Part shown: piece by piece, positions 19,994-29,779 of the stretch
How the letters are laid out: every line of letters begins with the position of its first letter
How positions within the stretch are numbered: position 1 is the stretch's first letter
Assembly (NCBI GenBank): GCA_030039755.1
Contig: JASHUY010000017.1
Location: 1 to 64,000, forward strand
DNA from: Acidimicrobiales bacterium
Lineage (GTDB): Bacteria; Actinomycetota; Acidimicrobiia; Acidimicrobiales; RAAP-2
Direction: 5' to 3'
DNA length: 64,000 nucleotides
Position numbers and translations under genes: made by a program
The notes under the pieces: generated by a model
The model's database searches: none
Seen by the model: the letters and a program-made list of their open reading frames with translations, nothing else
What the model was told of the DNA's origin: nothing

Positions 19994-20596
19994 TCACCCC
20001 GTCATGAGCGCAGACCGGAGCAGCTGGAGCACGTCGGTGCGTCGACGCACCAACGACCGTGCCGTCGGCTCCTCCCCGAGAGCCCGGAGCACGTCGACCT
20101 CGGTCACCATGCCGATCACGGTCGAATAGATCGCAAGCAGCAGCAGGTTCGGGTCGTGTCGCCGCATGTGGCCTGCGTCCATCTCCGCCTCGAGGAAGTC
20201 CGACGCCCGGCGGACGAGCGGCTGGAGCTCGAGGGTCATCTTCGTCGCGGCGGGAGGTCCGAGACGGGACACCTCCCGCAGGAGACCGAGCAGTTCGGGG
20301 CGGCGCGCCGCGAGGCGGAAGACCGATCGCACCACCGCTTCGACCTTCGCCCAGCCGTCCCCCGCGCCGTCGAGCGCGGACTGCATGGCCGACGCGAGCT
20401 CCTGCGCGCTGCGGGCGATCAACGCCTCGAGGAGTGCCTCCTTGCTCGGGAACCAGTAAAGGATCGACTGCTTGGTGATCCCGAGCCCCGCCGCCAGCAC
20501 GTCGAGCGAGGTCGCCTCGTACCCGCGGGTCCCCCACGCCCCGAGGGCCGCGTCCAGGATCCGTTCGCGCGTCGGCGCGGGCGCCGCAGCGGGCAC
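19994..20596 (-). CDS. TetR-family transcriptional regulator
   Basis: TRERILDAALGAWGTRGYEATSLDVLAAGLGITKQSILYWFPSKEALLEALI; GTG start. Confidence 0.92.
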   Translation of the reverse strand: MPAAAPAPTRERILDAALGAWGTRGYEATSLDVLAAGLGITKQSILYWFPSKEALLEALIARSAQELASAMQSALDGAGDGWAKVEAVVRSVFRLAARRPELLGLLREVSRLGPPAATKMTLELQPLVRRASDFLEAEMDAGHMRRHDPNLLLLAIYSTVIGMVTEVDVLRALGEEPTARSLVRRRTDVLQLLRSALMTG

Positions 20597-20619
20597 GCCC
20601 CGAAGACTACCCGGCTTCC

Positions 20620-20633
20620 CTACCAAATGGTAG
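20620..20633. promoter_or_regulatory. Perfect inverted repeat CTACCA-AA-TGGTAG, candidate TetR operator 1
   Basis: Read directly between divergent tetR and the acyl-CoA reductase gene. Confidence 0.8.
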
Positions 20634-20643
20634 ACAGCGGTGC

Positions 20644-20657
20644 CTACCAGGTGGTAG
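20644..20657. promoter_or_regulatory. Perfect inverted repeat CTACCA-GG-TGGTAG, candidate TetR operator 2
   Basis: Same arms as operator 1, 24 bp centre to centre; ends 9 bp before the ATG at 20667. Confidence 0.8.
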
Positions 20658-20666
20658 ACCAATGGG

Positions 20667-23021
20667 ATGCCGATCGCCGCCGCCCTCGCAGGCAAGCGGT
20701 TCTTCGTCACCGGTGGGACCGGGTTCCTCGGGACCGCGCTCGTCGAGCGGGTCCTGCGCACCGTCCCCGACGCCGAGGTCGTCGTGCTCGTGCGACCGGG
20801 ACGCAGGGCGAGCGCCGGCGAGCGGGCGACGCGCGAGATCGTTCGTAACGACTGCTTCGACCGTCTGCGCGAAGAGCTCGGCGACCGGTTCGAGGATGCG
20901 GCGAGCCGTGTCGTCGCGGTCGCGGGCGACGTGAGCCGCGACGGGCTCGGCCTCGACGCGGGGGGGAGGCGGCTTCTCGCCTCCTGCGACGTCGTCGTCC
21001 ACTCGGCCGCCACCGTCAGCTTCGACGCGCCTCTGGACCAAGCCGTGGAGATCAACATGCTCGGGCCCTCCCGGGTGGCGGCAGCCCTCCAGTACGCCCG
21101 CGCCGAGGCGGAGCGCACCGGGGGCGTCCACCTGATCGCCGTCTCGACCGCGTACGTGGCGGGCACGCACCAGGGCGAGGCGCACGAGGAGCTGCTCAGC
21201 GCCAACCGGTTCTCGCTCGAGGTGGACTGGCGCGCCGAGGTCGACTACGCGCGCAGGTTGCGTGAGGACTTCGAGGTCGAGTCGCGTCGAGCGGAGACGC
21301 TCGCGACGTTCGCCAAGAAAGCCCGCCAAGAGCTCGGCGCCGCCGGTGAGCACCTCCTCGCCGCACGCGCCGAAAGGCTGCGCGACGAGTGGATCAAGGA
21401 CCGGCTCGTCGACGCAGGCACCGCACGCGCCCAGTCGCTCGGCTGGCCCGACGCGTACCCCTTCACGAAGGCCATGGGCGAACGCGCCCTCATCGAGACC
21501 GTCGGCGTGCCGCTCAGCATCGTGCGGCCCTCCATCATCGAGTCCTCGCTCGCAGAGCCGGTTCCGGGGTGGATCCGGGGGTTCAGGATGGCCGAGCCGA
21601 TCATCATCTCCTTGGCGCGCGGGCTGCTCCGTGAGTTCCCCGGCGTGTCCGAAGGAGTGATCGACGTCATCCCTGTCGACATGGTCGTCGCCGCGATCCT
21701 GGCGATCGCCGCCGGGCCGCCGCCGGAGCAACCCGCGGTGTACCACGTCGCATCGGGGGTGGCGAACCCGTTGCGCTACGGCAGGCTCGTGGAGCTGATC
21801 CAGGAATGGTTCGCGCGCCACCCGCTCTACGACGACCGCGGTCAGCCGATCAGCCTGCCGGAATGGTCGTTCCCGGGCCGCGGGCGCGTCCAACGCCAGC
21901 TCCAGCGCGCGTCGAAGGCCATGGACGCAGCCGAGCGGTTGCTCACCGCGCTCCCACTGCGCGGGAGACAAGCCGCGCTCTCGGCGACGATCGAGGAACG
22001 CAACACGTTGGTGAAGCGCGCCCTCGACTACGTCGAGCTCTACGGCGCGTACACCGAGACCGAGGCGCGCTACCGCGTCGATCGGTTGCTCGAGGTCTGG
22101 CGCTCCCTCGACGAGGCGGACCGCGTGGCCTTCTGCTTCGACCCTTCGGCCATCGACTGGGACCACTACGTCCACGACATCCACCTGCCGTCGATCGTCG
22201 CCCACGCCCGGGTCAAGACGACGCCCGCGCGTCCCACGCTCGACAGCCGTCCGGAGCGTGCACGCCGGGCGATCCTCTCACCGGACCGCCACCTGGCCGC
22301 GTTCGACCTCGAGCACACCCTGATCGCTGCGAACGTCGTGGACAGCTACGCGTGGCTCGCGTCGCGACACCTCCCCGCGTCGCGCCGGCCCAAGCTCGTC
22401 GCGGAGCTGCTCGCGCAGGGACCCTCGCTCCTCGCGCTCGACCGGCGCGACCGCGGCGACTTCCTCAGGCTCTTCTACCGCCGGTACGACGGCGCCCCGG
22501 TCGCCCGGCTGGAGGAGGACGCGTGGGAGCTCTTCCACCGCCAGCTCCTCCCCCGGGCCTTCCCGGCAGGGCTCGCCCGGGTGCGCGCACACCGCAGGCT
22601 CGGTCACCGCACCCTCCTCATCACCGGGGCGCTCGACTTCGTGATCGCGCCGCTCCGTCCGCTGTTCGACGACATCGTCTGCGCACGCATGGCACAGGCG
22701 GGAGGGCGCTTCACGGGCCGACTCGACGAGCTGCCCCCCATCGGCGAAGCACGGGCGCAGCTCCTCGCCGACTACGCCGGCGCCCACGGCCTCGACCTCG
22801 CAGAGTCGGTCGCCTACGCGGACTCCGCGAGCGACCTCGCGATGCTCGAGGCCGTCGGGTTCCCCGTCGCGGTCAACCCCGAGACGCGACTCGCGGCGAT
22901 CGCCAGGCGGCGGGGATGGCACGTCGAGCACTGGTCCAAGGCGAAGGGAGGCGCCGAACGCCCGCTGCCGCTCGGGCCCCTCGACGTCCGGCCGCTGTCG
23001 CCCTCCCGGGTGAGAACGTGA
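20667..23021 (+). CDS. Fatty acyl-CoA reductase (NAD-binding 4 / male-sterility type) fused to HAD-IB phosphatase-like domain
   Basis: KRFFVTGGTGFLGTALVERVL; VVHSAATVSFD; YPFTKAMGERAL; SIVRPSIIESS; C-terminal AAFDLEHTLIAANVV..LLITGALDFVIAPL..AYADSASDLAMLEAVGFPVAVNPE. Confidence 0.9.
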   Translation: MPIAAALAGKRFFVTGGTGFLGTALVERVLRTVPDAEVVVLVRPGRRASAGERATREIVRNDCFDRLREELGDRFEDAASRVVAVAGDVSRDGLGLDAGGRRLLASCDVVVHSAATVSFDAPLDQAVEINMLGPSRVAAALQYARAEAERTGGVHLIAVSTAYVAGTHQGEAHEELLSANRFSLEVDWRAEVDYARRLREDFEVESRRAETLATFAKKARQELGAAGEHLLAARAERLRDEWIKDRLVDAGTARAQSLGWPDAYPFTKAMGERALIETVGVPLSIVRPSIIESSLAEPVPGWIRGFRMAEPIIISLARGLLREFPGVSEGVIDVIPVDMVVAAILAIAAGPPPEQPAVYHVASGVANPLRYGRLVELIQEWFARHPLYDDRGQPISLPEWSFPGRGRVQRQLQRASKAMDAAERLLTALPLRGRQAALSATIEERNTLVKRALDYVELYGAYTETEARYRVDRLLEVWRSLDEADRVAFCFDPSAIDWDHYVHDIHLPSIVAHARVKTTPARPTLDSRPERARRAILSPDRHLAAFDLEHTLIAANVVDSYAWLASRHLPASRRPKLVAELLAQGPSLLALDRRDRGDFLRLFYRRYDGAPVARLEEDAWELFHRQLLPRAFPAGLARVRAHRRLGHRTLLITGALDFVIAPLRPLFDDIVCARMAQAGGRFTGRLDELPPIGEARAQLLADYAGAHGLDLAESVAYADSASDLAMLEAVGFPVAVNPETRLAAIARRRGWHVEHWSKAKGGAERPLPLGPLDVRPLSPSRVRT

Positions 23022-24343
23022 AGTCGCTCGTCTTCGAGCGGAACCTCCCACGGTTCGCGGCCTCCAGGCTCGCGTCGACGTTCGGGTCCGGCCGCGGCGC
23101 GGGGATCGGCCCGTTGCGGCTCCTCGAGACCGAGCCGCCCGATCTGCCGGGCCCCGGGTGGGCACGGGTGACGCCGCTCCTCTCGGGCATCTGCGGCTCG
23201 GACCTCGCGACGCTCGACGGCAGGAGCTCGCGCTACTTCGAGCACATCGTGAGCTTCCCCTTCGTGCCCGGTCACGAAGTCGTGGGCGTGCTCGAGGCAG
23301 GCGGGCGCGTGGTGCTCGAGCCGGTTCTCGGTTGCGTCGCCCGCGGGATCGACCCGCCGTGCGTCGCCTGCGCGGGCGGGATGCTCGGCGGCTGTGAACG
23401 CATCGCCTTCGGTCATCTGAAGCCCGGCCTCCAGACGGGTTACTGCGCGGACACGGGCGGCGGCTGGTCCCACGCCGGGCTCGTCGCCCACGAGAGCCAG
23501 CTGCATCCGGTGCCCGACGCGTTCGGCGACGAGGACGCGGTGGTCGTCGAGCCGGTGGCGTGCGCCGTGCACGCGGTGTGCGCCGCAGCGCTGCACGACG
23601 GTGAGACGGTCGCGGTGCTCGGTGCCGGGACGCTCGGGCTCGCCGTGGTCGCGGCCGTGTCCGCGCTCTCGGCAACGGGGCGCGTCGAGGCACCCGACGC
23701 GCTGCTGGTCGGCGCGCGCTACGCGCACCAGCGCCACCTTGCGGCGGAGCTCGGCGCGACCGCGTCACTGGACCCGGAGCAGCTCGCGAGGGCCGTGCGC
23801 CGCAGGAGCAGCTCGCTCTCCCTGGTGGGCCCGCGGCCCGGCCGTCCCACCGGCCCGCTCACGGGCGGGGCGGACGTCGTCTTCGACTGCGTCGGGTCCG
23901 CCGACTCCCTCGCCCAGTCGCTCGACATGGTCCGCCCCCGCGGCCGCGTGGTGCTCGTCGGGATGCCCGGACGGGTGCACGTGGACCTTGCCCCCCTCTG
24001 GCAGCGCGAAGTCCGGCTCGTCGGCGCGTACGCCTACGGCACCGAGCCGCTCGCGTCGGGCGAGCGAGTCCGCACCTTCGACCTCGCCTTCGAGATCGTC
24101 GCCGCGCACGGCTTCGGACGGCTCGTCTCCGCGACGTACCCGATCGAGCGTTTCGAAGAGGCGGTGCAGCACGCGGGCGCCGCGGGCCGCAGGGGTGCGG
24201 TCAAGGTCGCCTTCGACCTTCGCCACGGCGGGACGCGGCACGGCGACGCGCCGTCGGCGAGCACCCGCCCGACGCGCCCCGCGCACCCGACGCGCCCCGC
24301 GCGCCCGACCATCGCCGGGACCAGCACAGGAGGCACATCATGA
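23018..24343 (+). CDS. Zinc-dependent alcohol dehydrogenase family protein
   Basis: GTGA overlap; GICGSDLATLDG; VPGHEVVGVLEAGGRVVLEP; VAVLGAGTLGLAVVAAV; VVFDCVGSADSLAQSLDMVRPRGRVVLVGMPG. Confidence 0.9.
   Translation: MKSLVFERNLPRFAASRLASTFGSGRGAGIGPLRLLETEPPDLPGPGWARVTPLLSGICGSDLATLDGRSSRYFEHIVSFPFVPGHEVVGVLEAGGRVVLEPVLGCVARGIDPPCVACAGGMLGGCERIAFGHLKPGLQTGYCADTGGGWSHAGLVAHESQLHPVPDAFGDEDAVVVEPVACAVHAVCAAALHDGETVAVLGAGTLGLAVVAAVSALSATGRVEAPDALLVGARYAHQRHLAAELGATASLDPEQLARAVRRRSSSLSLVGPRPGRPTGPLTGGADVVFDCVGSADSLAQSLDMVRPRGRVVLVGMPGRVHVDLAPLWQREVRLVGAYAYGTEPLASGERVRTFDLAFEIVAAHGFGRLVSATYPIERFEEAVQHAGAAGRRGAVKVAFDLRHGGTRHGDAPSASTRPTRPAHPTRPARPTIAGTSTGGTS
24268..24310 (+). repeat. 18-bp tandem repeat (about 2.4 copies) at the ADH 3' end
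   Basis: cccgacgcgccccgcgc(a/g) repeated; encodes the tail TRPTRPAHPTRPARPT. Confidence 0.75.
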
Positions 24344-25929
24344 CGCCCCGCCCAGGGCTCGTCCTCGAAGTGGACCGCTCCACCCCGCCCACCCTCTTCT
24401 GGCACGGCGAGCGCTTCGTCCTCGAACGCCTGCCGGAAGGGAGCCGCATCGTCTACGCACCCGAACCCCTCGCGCCGCTCGAGGACCCGGTCGCCGCGAT
24501 CCGCCGTGCGCTGCTCCACCCGCACGGCGACCGGGAGCCGCTTCCCGCGCTGCTGCGCGCGGGGATGCGCCTGACCATCTGCTTCGACGACGTCTCGCTG
24601 CCCCTTCCGCCGATGCAGTCGCCCGACGTCCGCCAGCTCGTGATCGAGCAGGTGCTCGACATGGCGGCCGAGGCGGGTGTCGACGACGTCGTCCTCGTCG
24701 CGGCGCTTGCGCTCCACCGCCGGATGACCGAAGCGGAGCTCCGCCATGCGCTCGGAGACCGCGTCTACGACGCCTTCGCGCCGCACGGTCTGCTCACCCA
24801 GCACGACGCGGAGGACCCCACGAACCTCATCCACCTCGGGTCGACGGAAAAGGGCGAGGACGTCGAGATCAACAAGCGCGCGGCGACGAGCGACCTCCTC
24901 GTCTACGTGAACATCAACTTGGTGGCGATGGACGGCGGGCACAAGAGCGTCGCAACGGGGCTCGCGAGCTACCGCAGCCTTCGCCACCACCACAACCCGA
25001 AGACGATGGTGCACAGCCGCTCGTTCATGGACGCGCCTTCTTCGGAGCTCCACTCGTCGAACTGGCGCATGGGCCGGCTCATCGCGGACTGCGGCGTGAG
25101 GATCTTCCAGATCGAGACGACGTTGAACACCGACACGTTCCCGTCGCAGTTCGGTTTCCTCCAGCGCCGGGAGTGGGAGTGGGGCCTTCGCGACCGCGCG
25201 ACCTACGTCGCGACCGCCGCCGCGCTCGACCGGACCCCGCCGCGTGTCGCCCGGCAGATCTTCCACTCGATCCGCGCCCCGCACGCGCTCGTCTCGGTCC
25301 AGGCGGGCGAGGTGGAAGCCGTGCACGCGGTCACCACGGCGAACATCTGGAAGCAGCAAGGCGTAGAGGTCGAGGGGCAGACCGACATCCTCACGATGGG
25401 CCTGCCGTACATCTGCCCGTACAACGTGAACTCGATCATGAACCCGATCCTCGTGGCGTGCCTCGGCCTCGGGTACTTCTTCAACCTCTACCGCGGCCGG
25501 CCGCTCGTGCGGAAGGGCGGTGTGGTGATCCTGCGCCACCCGACGCCCTGGGAGTTCCACCCCGGCCACCACCCGAGCTACATCGACTTCTTCGAAGAGG
25601 TGCTGAGCGACACGACCGACCCCGTCGAGATCTCCAAGACCTACGAGGAGTCCTTCGCGACCGATCCCTGGTACGTGCACCTCTACCGGACCGGCAACGC
25701 CTACCACGGCGTGCACCCCTTCTACATGTGGTACTGGTGCGCGCACGCGCTCGACCACCTCGGCCGCGTGATCGTGGTCGGCGGGGACCCGGCCGCCGTC
25801 CGGCGCATGGGCTTCTCCCCCGCCACCAGCCTCGACGACGCGCTCGAGATCGCGAGCGACGTCGTCGGACGCTCCCCGAGCCTCACCCATGTCCACACCC
25901 CGCCGCTGCTCATGGCGGACGTGCGATGA
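24340..25929 (+). CDS. LarA-like (DUF2088, nickel-dependent lactate racemase superfamily) protein, divergent
   Basis: ATGA overlap; LTICFDDVSLPLPPM; DDVVLVAALALHRRMTEAELRHALGD; MDGGHKSVATGL reminiscent of the LarA GGRKS region. Confidence 0.72.
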   Translation: MTPRPGLVLEVDRSTPPTLFWHGERFVLERLPEGSRIVYAPEPLAPLEDPVAAIRRALLHPHGDREPLPALLRAGMRLTICFDDVSLPLPPMQSPDVRQLVIEQVLDMAAEAGVDDVVLVAALALHRRMTEAELRHALGDRVYDAFAPHGLLTQHDAEDPTNLIHLGSTEKGEDVEINKRAATSDLLVYVNINLVAMDGGHKSVATGLASYRSLRHHHNPKTMVHSRSFMDAPSSELHSSNWRMGRLIADCGVRIFQIETTLNTDTFPSQFGFLQRREWEWGLRDRATYVATAAALDRTPPRVARQIFHSIRAPHALVSVQAGEVEAVHAVTTANIWKQQGVEVEGQTDILTMGLPYICPYNVNSIMNPILVACLGLGYFFNLYRGRPLVRKGGVVILRHPTPWEFHPGHHPSYIDFFEEVLSDTTDPVEISKTYEESFATDPWYVHLYRTGNAYHGVHPFYMWYWCAHALDHLGRVIVVGGDPAAVRRMGFSPATSLDDALEIASDVVGRSPSLTHVHTPPLLMADVR

Positions 25930-26813
25930 AGCCCGCAGGGTTCCCCTTCTCCAAGCCCACCTGGCCCACCGGGGTCCCGCGCCCGGCACCGGACCGTCGC
26001 GTCGGCGTGGACTACGACCACGAGTGGTCGCGCCGCTACCCGGTGCGCCTGGCGCGCGCGGTCGTGCTCGACAACGTCACGCGGCCTGCGGCCCGAATCG
26101 TCGCCCCGACCACGGTGCGCGGGACCGAGCACCTGCGTCACGTCGCCCCGCCGGCCATCTTCGCGGCCAACCACGCGAGCCACCTGGACACCCCGCTGCT
26201 GCTCACGACCCTTCCGGTCAGGTTCCGCCACCGCACCGTGGTGGCGGCTGCTGCGGACCACTTCTTCGACCGCCACTGGAAGGCGGTGCTGTGGTCGTTC
26301 GGCGTCGCGGCGATCCCCATCGAGCGCGCGAGGGTCAACCGGCGCTCCGCCGACGTCGCGGCCGCGCTGTTGGAGGAGGGGTGGAACCTCATCGTCTACC
26401 CCGAGGGTGGCCGTTCCCCCGATGGTTGGGCCCAGCCCTTCAGGGGCGGCGCCGCCTACCTCGCGCGGCGGTCCGGGCGCCCGGTCGTCCCGGTGCACGT
26501 CAACGGGACCCGTCACGTGCTCCCGAAGGGCGGTGGGCGCCGCCTGCCGCGCCGCTCCCCCGTGTCCGTCGTCTTCGGCCCGCCGCTCACCCCCGACGAG
26601 GGCGAAGACGCGCGCCGCTTCGGCGCACGCATCGAGACCGCCGTCGCGGTGCTCGCCGACGAGGTGTCGAGCGACTGGTGGCAAGCGCGCACCCGGGCGG
26701 CCCGCGGCGACACGCCGTCGCTCCGCGGCCCGGACGTCGCCGGATGGCGGCGGTCCTGGGCGCTCGACCCGCGGCCCGAGGCGCCAGGCCGCGACCCCTG
26801 GCCACGCGTCTAA
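25926..26813 (+). CDS. PlsC-family 1-acyl-glycerol-3-phosphate acyltransferase-like protein
   Basis: ATGA overlap; NHASHLDTPLL (HxxxxD); LIVYPEGGRSPDGWAQPFRGGAAYLARRSGRPVVPV. Confidence 0.9.
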   Translation: MKPAGFPFSKPTWPTGVPRPAPDRRVGVDYDHEWSRRYPVRLARAVVLDNVTRPAARIVAPTTVRGTEHLRHVAPPAIFAANHASHLDTPLLLTTLPVRFRHRTVVAAAADHFFDRHWKAVLWSFGVAAIPIERARVNRRSADVAAALLEEGWNLIVYPEGGRSPDGWAQPFRGGAAYLARRSGRPVVPVHVNGTRHVLPKGGGRRLPRRSPVSVVFGPPLTPDEGEDARRFGARIETAVAVLADEVSSDWWQARTRAARGDTPSLRGPDVAGWRRSWALDPRPEAPGRDPWPRV

Positions 26814-26832
26814 CCCTGTATGACTGTCAGGA

Positions 26833-27591
26833 GTGTCCCTCAGCGACGGCGCGACCCTCGACCTCACGGTCGTGGTCCCCTACTTCAACCCGGGTGACCG
26901 CGTCCGCGAGACCATCGACGAGCTCGTTCGCACGCTGTCGGGAACCGGCGCGACGTTCGAGGTGATCGCGGTCTCCGACGGGTCCACGGACGGGAGCGAG
27001 ATGGCGCTCGCAGACCTGCCGGCGGACCTGGTGCGGACCGTCCGGCTGCAGCACAACCACGGCAAGGGGGAGGCCCTGCGCGTGGGGTTCACCATGGGGC
27101 GGGGAAGGTTCCTCGGGTTCATCGACGGCGACGGCGACCTCCCCCCGGACCAGGTCGCGACCCTCGCCGCCATCGCCCACGAGGCCGACACCCCCGCGCC
27201 CGACGTCGTCTTGGGCTCGAAGCGCCATCCCGCCTCCCAGGTCGTCTACCCCCCGTTGCGGCGCCTCTACTCGTGGTCGTGGCAACAACTGGTGCTCGCG
27301 CTCTTCGGACTGCACGTGCGCGATACGCAGACCGGCCTCAAGCTCGTGCGCCGCGAGGTCCTCGCCGACGTCCTCCCGCGGATGCTCGAGAAGCGCTTCG
27401 CCTTCGACCTCGAGCTGCTCGTCGTGGCTCGCCGGCTCGGTTACCACCGCTTCGTCGAAGTGCCCGTGCGCATCCGGGAGCGGTTCGGCAGCACCGTCTC
27501 CCCTCGCGCCGTGGCGGGAATGCTCGTCGACCTGTTCGCGATCTTCTACCGACTCCGGGTCTCACGCCACTACGACGGGCCCGGCGCGTAG
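26833..27591 (+). CDS. Family 2 glycosyltransferase (dolichyl-phosphate-mannose/glucose synthase-like)
   Basis: DLTVVVPYFNPGDRVRETIDEL; VSDGSTDGS; HNHGKGEALRVGF; FIDGDGDLPPDQ; DTQTGLKLVRREVL. Confidence 0.9.
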   Translation: MSLSDGATLDLTVVVPYFNPGDRVRETIDELVRTLSGTGATFEVIAVSDGSTDGSEMALADLPADLVRTVRLQHNHGKGEALRVGFTMGRGRFLGFIDGDGDLPPDQVATLAAIAHEADTPAPDVVLGSKRHPASQVVYPPLRRLYSWSWQQLVLALFGLHVRDTQTGLKLVRREVLADVLPRMLEKRFAFDLELLVVARRLGYHRFVEVPVRIRERFGSTVSPRAVAGMLVDLFAIFYRLRVSRHYDGPGA

Positions 27592-28313
27592 CGCACCGTG
27601 CCGCCCGCCCGGCCGGCGCGCACCGCGGCGATCCTCTCCTTGCGCAGCGCCGCTTCCTCGGCGTCGTCGAGCGCATGCAGCACACGGCCCGTGGCCCACG
27701 AGATCAGCAGGTCCGCGAATCCGGGGTTGCGCGCGAGCACCGGACCGTGGAGGTAGGTGCCGACCACCCTTCCCGAGCGCGCCCCTTCCGTGCCGTCCCC
27801 GTTGCCCACGCCGGCCGTCACCCGGGCGAGTGGCGCGGTCGTGGGGCCGCGGGTGGTGAGCCCGCCGTGGTTCTCGAACCCGGTGAGCACGGGCAGCCCC
27901 TCGTCGAGCGGCTCGGCGAGGATCTCCCCCACCGCGCGACGCCCCCTCCCCTTGGTGGTCGTCACGTCGAGCAGGCCGAGCCCGGAGAGCGGGCGGCCGT
28001 CCGCCGCGGGGAAGCTGCGACCGACGATCTGGTAGCCCGCGCACACTGCGAGCAGGACCGCCCCCTGCCCGACTGCCCGCTCGAGCGTTCCCTCTTCGCG
28101 CAGGCGTTCGGCGGACGCCGTCTGCGCCGCATCCTCGCCGCCCCCGAGGCAGTAGAGGTCGCCGGTGGGCAGCGGCAGGTCCGACGTCGCGTCGACCAGC
28201 TCGGTCTCGATGCCGCGCCAGCGTGCGCGCTGTGCCAGCACGACGCCGTTGCCCCCGTCGCCGTAGGTGCCGAGGAGGTCGGGGTGGACCACGACCACCG
28301 TGAGGGCGCTCAC
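27570..28313 (-). CDS. gatD: GatD-type glutamine amidotransferase (CobB/CobQ-like), lipid II isoglutaminyl synthase subunit
   Basis: LTVVVVHPDLLGTYGDGGNGVVLAQRARWRGI; LLAVCAGYQIVG nucleophile; GFENHGG; GTYLHGPVLARNP; GTGA overlap with murT. Confidence 0.88.
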   Translation of the reverse strand: MSALTVVVVHPDLLGTYGDGGNGVVLAQRARWRGIETELVDATSDLPLPTGDLYCLGGGEDAAQTASAERLREEGTLERAVGQGAVLLAVCAGYQIVGRSFPAADGRPLSGLGLLDVTTTKGRGRRAVGEILAEPLDEGLPVLTGFENHGGLTTRGPTTAPLARVTAGVGNGDGTEGARSGRVVGTYLHGPVLARNPGFADLLISWATGRVLHALDDAEEAALRKERIAAVRAGRAGGTVRYAPGPS

Positions 28314-29587
28314 GCCCCGGTCCTCGTCGTGCGCGCCAGCAGGTCGGTGAAGGCGGTGTAGTTGCCGACGAAGTCGACGGGGCCACGAGCGGCCATCCAC
28401 GCGGCACGAACGGCCGCGACCTGGTCGCGTACGGTGCGATGGGGAACCTCTGCGTAGCGGAGCCGAACGGAGAGGTCGCGGCACCGCTCGCCCGTCGCGA
28501 CGACCGTCCGTCCCCGCAAACGCTCGAAGGGCACGTCCCAGAGCCACGACGGGTCCCTGCCGTCGGCGAGGCGCGCGTTGATCCCGACCACGACGGCACG
28601 GTCGCCGGGACAGACGAGGTCGAGCAGCTCGCCCCAGCCGGCAGGGTTCTTGGCGAGCATCACGCGCGCGGCGCAGCCGGCGACCTCGACCACGGCGAAC
28701 CGCCCCGCGACCTCGTCGACGTCTGCGATACGGCGAAGCGCGTCGTCCCAGTCGACACCTGCCGTCACTGCGGCGGCGGTGGCCATGACCGCGTTGGCGC
28801 GGTTGAAACGTCCCGGCAGGGCCAGCGCGAGGTCGAGCCGCCGGCCGTCGGCGGTCACGACGCAATCCCCGTCGAGGCGGACGTCGAGCCGAGGACGCGC
28901 GAAGCCGCACGTGCACCTCCAGCCGCCCTCTTCACCGGTTGCACCGGCCGCAAAGGCGATGCGACCCTCGCACGCCGGGCACCCCACCGCGTCCTGCCGC
29001 CACGGGAGCCCCGCGCCGACCCAGACCGGGTGCGCCGCGCGTTGGGCCGCCCAGGCGACGATCGGGTCGTCTGCGTTCGCGACCACGGTCGTGGAAGGCG
29101 CCTGCGCCTCCGACAGCGCGGCACGCCACTTGCCCGCCACCATGCGGACCTCGTTCGTCCGGTCGAGCTGGTCCCGCGAGAGGTTGAGCAGGACCACGGT
29201 CTCGGGGGCCAGCGACGCGACGAGATGCGGCAGGTACCCCTCGTCGACCTCGAGGACCGCAGGCGCGCCCGGAGGTGCGCCGGCCAGCGCGGTCACGTGC
29301 CCGGCCGGCATGTTCGAGCCGGTGGCGTTGGTGGCGGCGCGCCCGAGCGCCCCACCGACCGCGACGGCGAGCAGGCGGGTCGTCGTCGTCTTCCCGTTCG
29401 TGCCGCTCACGAGCGCCACCCGCCGGCCGGCGGCCAGGCGCTCGAGCAGGCGCGGGTCGAGCGCGAGGCCCACGTGACCACCGGCGACGGAGCCGCTGCC
29501 CGCGCCGAGCCGCCTGGAGAGCGCGTTCACCGCCCGGGTGGCTGCGACCGCCGCCCGGGCCCGGACCGGGAGCCGCCCGGTGGTCAC
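28310..29587 (-). CDS. murT: MurT, lipid II isoglutaminyl synthase Mur-ligase-like subunit
   Basis: VSGTNGKTTTTRLL; EVDEGYLPH; Cys pairs CPAC/CTC; PGRFNRANAVMA; start GTG (EPVTTG). Confidence 0.9.
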   Translation of the reverse strand: MTTGRLPVRARAAVAATRAVNALSRRLGAGSGSVAGGHVGLALDPRLLERLAAGRRVALVSGTNGKTTTTRLLAVAVGGALGRAATNATGSNMPAGHVTALAGAPPGAPAVLEVDEGYLPHLVASLAPETVVLLNLSRDQLDRTNEVRMVAGKWRAALSEAQAPSTTVVANADDPIVAWAAQRAAHPVWVGAGLPWRQDAVGCPACEGRIAFAAGATGEEGGWRCTCGFARPRLDVRLDGDCVVTADGRRLDLALALPGRFNRANAVMATAAAVTAGVDWDDALRRIADVDEVAGRFAVVEVAGCAARVMLAKNPAGWGELLDLVCPGDRAVVVGINARLADGRDPSWLWDVPFERLRGRTVVATGERCRDLSVRLRYAEVPHRTVRDQVAAVRAAWMAARGPVDFVGNYTAFTDLLARTTRTGA

Positions 29588-29779
29588 CGGTTCACGGAGC
29601 CCGGCTGGTCGAGGTCGAGGTCGAGGAAGGCGGTGCGTGCGCCGGCGATCGTGGACACGCCGGGAGGTTATCGATCGCCGAAACGGCGGGGACACGCCGC
29701 CCCCACGTCGGTCCCCTCCTCCTCGGGTACCTGCCAGGCGGGCACCCCGGCCTGGCCGCCTTCCCCGCGCCGGACGCGA

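Follow-up and report, generated by a model that had tools for sequence, protein, structure and literature searches.

A 64,000-nt stretch of DNA from an Acidimicrobiales bacterium (GenBank assembly GCA_030039755.1, contig JASHUY010000017.1), called the window below, contains a tetR gene diverging from a cassette of four genes. They code for a fatty acyl-CoA reductase fused to a HAD domain (FAR-HAD), an alcohol dehydrogenase (ADH), a LarA homologue (LarAH) and a PlsC-type acyltransferase. From comparative sequence analyses it appears rather likely that this cassette gives actinobacteria an alternative, TetR-regulated route to glycerophospholipids of the 1-O-alkyl (mixed ether/ester) type. An ether glycerolipid is favoured because the Rubrobacteraceae combine a PlsY-containing form of the cassette with a record of ether/ester lipids, because known ether enzymes are missing there, and because AGPS genes are located near some cassettes. 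These are counted as three independent lines of evidence.

The genome concerned (G000; the window contig is C177) is a metagenome-assembled genome (MAG) of the Acidimicrobiia of 2.98 Mb in 247 contigs and is 70% complete. Pfam and NCBIfam searches of the window proteins revealed NAD_binding_4, Sterile and HAD-IB domains in the fusion protein, and domains of medium-chain dehydrogenase/reductase (MDR) ADH, Lar_N, PlsC, GT2 and TetR in the others. The features are:

19994-20596, minus strand: tetR, divergent, TetR-family repressor (Pfam TetR_N, 2.4e-12), likeliest start GTG at 20596
20620-20633: predicted TetR operator 1, CTACCAAATGGTAG, perfect palindrome
20644-20657: predicted TetR operator 2, CTACCAGGTGGTAG, perfect palindrome, centre 24 nt from that of operator 1, end 9 nt before the FAR-HAD start codon
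20667-23021, plus strand: FAR-HAD fusion of 784 aa; the N-terminal part is a fatty acyl-CoA reductase that includes a Sterile domain, the C-terminal part a HAD-IB phosphatase-like domain at about 22296-22889
23018-24343, plus strand: Zn-dependent MDR ADH (Pfam and NCBIfam), GTG start at 23018
24340-25929, plus strand: nickel-pincer-nucleotide (NPN) enzyme of the LarAH14/15/16 group, 529 aa (Lar_N; NCBIfam NF052592)
25926-26813, plus strand: PlsC-type acyltransferase (Pfam PF01553, 7e-21; PDB PlsC match 5kym)
26833-27591, plus strand: GT2 glycosyltransferase, co-oriented neighbour 19 nt after PlsC, judged to lie outside the conserved cassette

These coordinates agree with the original prediction, made from the window alone, of tetR diverging from four genes with 4-nt overlaps at 23018, 24340 and 25926, followed after 19 nt by a GT2 gene. 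For tetR, the GTG at 20596 is the likelier start, defining the coding sequence as 19994-20596. An alternative open reading frame (ORF) is longer, starts with TTG and extends back across both predicted operators.

Conservation of the cassette

Co-occurrence was determined in 397 genomes of one phylum, Actinomycetota, the sole phylum searched systematically; the p-values are inflated by relatedness and carry no correction for shared ancestry. A full LarAH14 was detected in 80 genomes and FAR-HAD in 82, with both in 79 of the 83 carriers (Fisher p ~1e-78). Contig ends truncate three of the four exceptions (G253, G099, G282), which leaves G399 as the one real case. The order (tetR) FAR-HAD/ADH/LarAH/PlsC is kept, including the strand, in all 80 LarAH loci of the genome contig set as far as the contigs reach, and all LarAH loci above the cut-off that were fetched from other families of the phylum lie within the cassette. 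FAR and HAD form a single ORF in 101 of 101 loci, and junctions of -4 recur. Because order and strand recur in the 80 LarAH loci and in other families, the arrangement is far beyond chance, and the conservation of gene order beyond the source strain that had been anticipated holds in Acidimicrobiia and in several other families. Adjacency is not absolute, as LarAH is found up to ~6 kb from ADH in Rubrobacteraceae and on a separate contig in G122.

LarAH is an obligate partner of FAR-HAD and the most conserved member of the cassette, with 143 of 529 positions at least 98% identical among 115 sequences. A LarA-like protein had been regarded as unexpected in such a cassette; it is indeed present, but these data show that it is not an oddity of one strain. 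GT2, in turn, follows PlsC only in the genus of the window and in one sister genus. It was therefore rejected as a member of the cassette, and glycosylation by GT2, previously suggested as part of the system, did not stand. In the other actinobacterial families, for which gene calls are crude, no sixth widely recurring gene besides tetR was found. Relatives of LarAH were detected neither in a tblastn search of plasmids nor in a scan of viral contigs. Distant LarAHs with 41-44% identity are located outside the cassette (L159-L161, L168 and L169; families including f55 and f68), and a CoA-transferase-like gene was noticed by eye beside those of L160 and L168.

A palindromic operator accompanies tetR

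Starting from GTG 20596, the divergent region between tetR and FAR-HAD is 70 nt long and contains the two perfect palindromes CTACCAAATGGTAG and CTACCAGGTGGTAG, while 0.01 would be expected by chance in the whole window. The tetR homologue adjoins the cassette in most Acidimicrobiia and is located downstream of PlsC in some other families. The operator, CTACCANNTGGTAG, is nearly confined to loci having tetR. Among 94 loci with upstream sequence, TACCANNTGGTA was found upstream of FAR with at most one mismatch in 56 of the 58 with a tetR homologue and in one of the 36 without; the other two of the 58 have the variant CTACCGNNCGGTAG. The operator stays upstream of FAR even when tetR is downstream of PlsC (L151, L153; in the variant form L144, L165). 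Since its presence tracks tetR even in this arrangement, there is strong evidence at the sequence level that the cassette is regulated by TetR, as the original prediction of a TetR-controlled lipid operon had implied. TetR presumably acts by repression, and its ligand is presumably an acyl or alkyl intermediate.

FAR-HAD, ADH and PlsC

In structure comparisons, which included Foldseek, the two parts of the fusion protein matched the PDB entries 7eoz (FAR, E=5e-62) and 3fvv (HAD). The FAR part contains NAD_binding_4 and Sterile domains and the motifs GxxGFxG and YxxxK, with catalytic Y264 and K268 invariant, and is accordingly predicted to belong to the alcohol-forming fatty acyl-CoA reductases. 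A Pfam scan detected no acyl-CoA synthetase (ACS) or acyl carrier protein (ACP) domain in the fusion. The HAD domain resembles phosphoserine and histidinol-phosphate phosphatases; its nucleophilic Asp is kept, and motif I reads DxE in 91 of 105 sequences. ADH likely prefers an NADP-type cofactor because K/R follows the second beta strand. In PlsC, the motifs NHxSHxD and PEGxR are intact and invariant in 104 sequences.

FAR enzymes supply the alcohol for bacterial wax esters, and a WS/DGAT-like ORF was noticed by eye near the cassette of one locus, L074. Wax ester storage, in which the PlsC-like acyltransferase would esterify the fatty alcohol formed by FAR, is nevertheless the least probable explanation considered here. 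The conserved unit contains no wax synthase, the NHxSHxD motif of PlsC and the exchange of PlsC for PlsY described below indicate phosphate-bearing acceptors, and wax ester synthesis offers no role for LarAH, the best-conserved protein of the cassette.

The active site of LarAH

LarAH scores 888 bits over its full length against NF052592 (cut-off 740) and is thus a member of the LarAH14/15/16 group. Alignment with LarA structures revealed the residues typical of NPN-dependent enzymes in all 115 LarAH sequences: the ribose-binding Asp (D83/D84), the first catalytic His (H126, equivalent to His108), the Lys that anchors NPN (K202) and the His that ligates Ni (H217/H218). The second catalytic His (LarA Lp His174) is replaced by Asn193 (112 of 115) or Asn191 (115 of 115), the alignment being uncertain by one to two residues, and the equivalent of LarA Arg75, which binds the NPN phosphate and the substrate carboxylate, is Ser86 in all 115. 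Neither the second His nor Arg75, both characteristic of two-histidine LarA racemases and epimerases, is therefore present. LarA groups 14 and 15 have been described as lacking the second catalytic histidine (PMC12611868), and the top Foldseek match to an AlphaFold model of LarAH (pLDDT 80) was 9q3k, a single-histidine LarA (E=8.5e-30).

LarAH is the sole PF09861 protein in G000, and LarB, LarC and LarE are all encoded in the genome, with the LarC gene broken across two contig ends. Among 61 relatives, 48 contain both LarAH and LarB+LarC, four LarAH only, three LarB/LarC only (incomplete MAGs) and six neither (p=3e-4). Because the NPN-binding residues are kept and LarB/LarC co-occur, LarAH most likely uses NPN; because the second catalytic His and the substrate-carboxylate Arg are lost, simple racemisation of hydroxyacids is an unlikely function for it. 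A role as an ordinary lactate, malate or gluconate isomerase was rejected on these active-site residues. In G030, G048, G053 and G055 (L026, L184, L183 and L182) the cassette and the NPN-binding residues are intact despite no LarB/LarC being found, and LarE above the cut-off was not detected in G030, G053 and G055. These bacteria may scavenge the cofactor, the genes may have been missed, or LarAH may work without NPN.

Several LarAHs take glycerate or aldonates (PMC11770544), and the HAD domain, with its likeness to phosphoserine and histidinol-phosphate phosphatases, could dephosphorylate a phosphoglycerate-like precursor. LarAH might in that case supply or epimerise a small hydroxyacid serving as headgroup or backbone, for example of a glycerate-type lipid. 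This appears quite improbable, given the single-His site of LarAH and the inactivity of LarAH14 from Frankia in seven assays, glycerate not included (PMC7583248); the proximity of AGPS genes reported below would be left unexplained as well.

PlsY in Rubrobacteraceae

Plasmid contigs of one family in the data set, f51, match plasmids of R. radiotolerans, R. tropicus, R. marinus and R. indicoceani with 100% identity; on account of these matches to Rubrobacter plasmids the family is identified as Rubrobacteraceae. Its cassette lacks PlsC, and each of the 12 genomes checked encodes PlsY immediately upstream of FAR-HAD. In eight of the 12, this is the only PlsY of the genome. The cassette is thus tied to glycerol-phosphate acylation, by PlsC or, in Rubrobacteraceae, by PlsY. 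In several members of the family (L156:10804-11394, L166:5522-6112, L221:8667-9323) a protoglobin gene is located between ADH and LarAH. Mixed ether/ester lipids are reported as the dominant membrane lipids of Rubrobacterales, according to the title of a reference in PMC11150832.

The two acyltransferase types are also relevant to a catabolic or detoxifying function, in which TetR would induce the operon in response to alkyl lipids or fatty aldehydes. TetR repressors often sense the substrate of their operon, and ADH and FAR families can in general run toward oxidation or detoxification. Such a function is given little credence, since PlsC or PlsY recur with the cassette, up to the sole genomic PlsY in most Rubrobacteraceae checked, and no hydrolase or beta-oxidation gene recurs beside it.

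Known ether enzymes in cassette genomes

To define AGPS, the class boundary was set at the score gap between E ~1e-111 and 1e-93. No AGPS-class protein was found in 23 Rubrobacteraceae genomes. Two FAD-oxidase_C proteins of R. radiotolerans were rejected as AGPS; one is GlcD and the other a FAD-FeS dehydrogenase, both closer to glycolate/lactate oxidases. The best match of the AGPS search in G000, the 70% complete MAG, was 6e-49, weaker than even the class below AGPS. HGD-D (PF06050), the family of the multidomain Ger/PlsA protein, was searched for in 17 cassette genomes and was missing from 16, including all six Rubrobacteraceae. Only G000 has HGD-D proteins, a stand-alone pair of ordinary size encoded side by side (C245:85754-88052), which could reflect an anaerobic trait or contamination. 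Ger/PlsA was rejected as the ether enzyme of the cassette genomes tested, there being no multidomain HGD-D and only the stand-alone pair in G000.

AGPS (PDB E=1e-67) is encoded ~0.7-6 kb from the cassette in four loci (L082, L080, L074, L178); in G050 and G356 the distance is a few kb. In G399, the sole FAR-HAD genome without LarAH, FAR-HAD is adjoined by PlsC, diacylglycerol kinase and a true AGPS (E=8e-105 against the Dictyostelium enzyme), which takes the place of LarAH. This candidate AGPS-type ether-lipid cluster (L217:6993-15743) also contains a weak ferritin-like/desaturase match. AGPS and LarAH were rejected as strict alternatives, as their negative association is only weak (both in nine genomes, LarAH alone in 71, AGPS alone in 85; p=0.003, confounded by phylogeny). 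An ether-type lipid, one of the products suggested originally, gains support as the likeliest product from the Rubrobacter lipid record, from PlsY in place of PlsC and from the AGPS neighbours.

The same results bear on lipids with long-chain 1,2-diols or hydroxylated chains. LarA enzymes work on 2-hydroxyacids (PMC7583248, PMC11770544), and the combination of FAR and acyltransferase would suit diol lipids like those of Thermomicrobium; LarAH would isomerise or oxidise a long-chain 2-hydroxyacid, FAR and ADH would reduce it to the diol, and PlsC would acylate the diol or its phosphate. This explanation is considered unlikely. LarAH is without the second catalytic His and the carboxylate-binding Arg, with Ser86 invariant, PlsY in place of PlsC in Rubrobacteraceae points to glycerol-3-phosphate, and the AGPS neighbours point to dihydroxyacetone-phosphate (DHAP) chemistry. 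Reports of diol lipids for the cassette taxa were not found in the literature.

A proposed pathway to ether glycerolipids

In the favoured ether-lipid pathway, FAR would convert acyl-CoA to a fatty alcohol (or aldehyde), and PlsC or PlsY would acylate glycerol-phosphate or DHAP. ADH would carry out keto reduction in the slot of alkyl-DHAP reductase, and the HAD domain would remove phosphate at some point. LarAH would use NPN as a hydride carrier, acting on the C2 carbinol or ketone of a three-carbon intermediate, with the outcome that the sn-1 chain becomes an ether, in the slot of AGPS, or that a keto intermediate is handled. That LarAH carries out the ether-forming or C2-redox step is put forward tentatively. 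The more specific idea that LarAH14 is a new nickel-pincer enzyme, forming or enabling the sn-1 ether bond without AGPS, ElbD or Ger by means of a borrowed C2 hydride, is speculative. Its substrate would be 1-acylglycerol(one)-phosphate. The enzyme would load the C2 hydride onto NPN, in the manner of LarA acting on lactate, and give it back on the same face once the sn-1 chain has undergone exchange or reduction; in an exchange, a fatty alcohol would take the place of the acyl chain. Removal and return of a hydride on one face would need only one catalytic histidine and no substrate carboxylate, which fits the residues lost in LarAH. Literature linking LarA or NPN with ether lipids was not found.

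Several observations weigh against the ether-lipid pathway. To our knowledge, LarA chemistry is confined to alpha-hydroxyacids. AGPS is encoded in nine of the 80 LarAH genomes, including G055, and absent from 71, and LarAH is thus no simple replacement of AGPS. LarB and LarC, found in 48 of 52 LarAH genomes, were not detected in the four relatives named above (G030, G048, G053, G055), ADH is absent from a few loci (L173, L174, L183), and the HAD domain has no assigned pathway step. Reports of ether lipids in Acidimicrobiia were not found in the literature. Furthermore, Frankia LarAH14, purified and supplied with NPN, was inactive in seven assays, none on lipids (PMC7583248).

The orphan LarAH14/15/16 group gains a metabolic setting and candidate substrates from these analyses. 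If the proposal is true, the nickel-pincer cofactor would for the first time have a part in lipid synthesis. The cassette may also explain genetically how aerobic actinobacteria without known ether-bond enzymes form ether lipids, a gap that matters when such bacterial lipids are read as biomarkers and in the debate on the "lipid divide". Ether lipids are predicted in Acidimicrobiia and other environmental actinobacteria.

Genes adjacent to the cassette

The window encodes a MurT/GatD pair (lipid II amidation) in divergent orientation at 27570-29695; such a pair is often located downstream of PlsC in Acidimicrobiaceae. In many Acidimicrobiia, a separate HAD-acyltransferase fusion is located near LysR or MurT/GatD genes (L178:3594-5015, L082:19115-20497); the window has no fusion at that place.

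Comparison with known systems

The elb operon of myxobacteria (ElbA-E), where alkyl and vinyl ether lipids decrease when elbD is disrupted, resembles the cassette in that a FAR1-like domain, an AGPAT-like acyltransferase, a HAD phosphohydrolase and NAD-type oxidoreductases are combined in one operon of aerobes (PMC9131029). ElbD, however, is a FAR-ACS-ACP-acyltransferase protein, whereas FAR is fused to HAD in all 101 loci of the cassette, and the oxidoreductase is of the MDR type here and a short-chain dehydrogenase/reductase in elb. LarAH is present in the cassette; ElbC is described only as of unknown function. With the animal FAR1/GNPAT/AGPS/alkyl-DHAP-reductase pathway, the cassette shares FAR, a PlsC-superfamily acyltransferase and a ketone-type reductase, and AGPS is located beside some cassettes, but 71 of 80 LarAH-cassette genomes are without AGPS and have LarAH instead. 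Ger/PlsA (glycerol ester reductase) represents another bacterial route to sn-1 ether bonds, and its HGD-D family is missing from 16 of the 17 cassette genomes tested. Among LarA proteins, the single-histidine enzymes of Streptococcus plurextorum (9q3k, the best fold match) and Blautia wexlerae (9q3j) keep the NPN-binding Asp, Lys and His as LarAH does. LarAH is only ~23% identical to 9q3k, has Ser at the Arg/Lys phosphate/carboxylate site and is encoded in a lipid-type rather than a glycolytic neighbourhood.

A putative operon for 1-O-alkylglycerol-phosphate in Rubrobacter, resembling that of other aerobes, was reportedly proposed in 2023 by Sinninghe Damste et al. in Syst Appl Microbiol. It probably overlaps the Rubrobacteraceae form of the cassette and may be identical with it, and the designation of the system as undescribed in the original prediction has to be qualified to this extent. 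The occurrence of the cassette in Acidimicrobiia and further families, its TetR operator and the link to NPN come from the present analysis.

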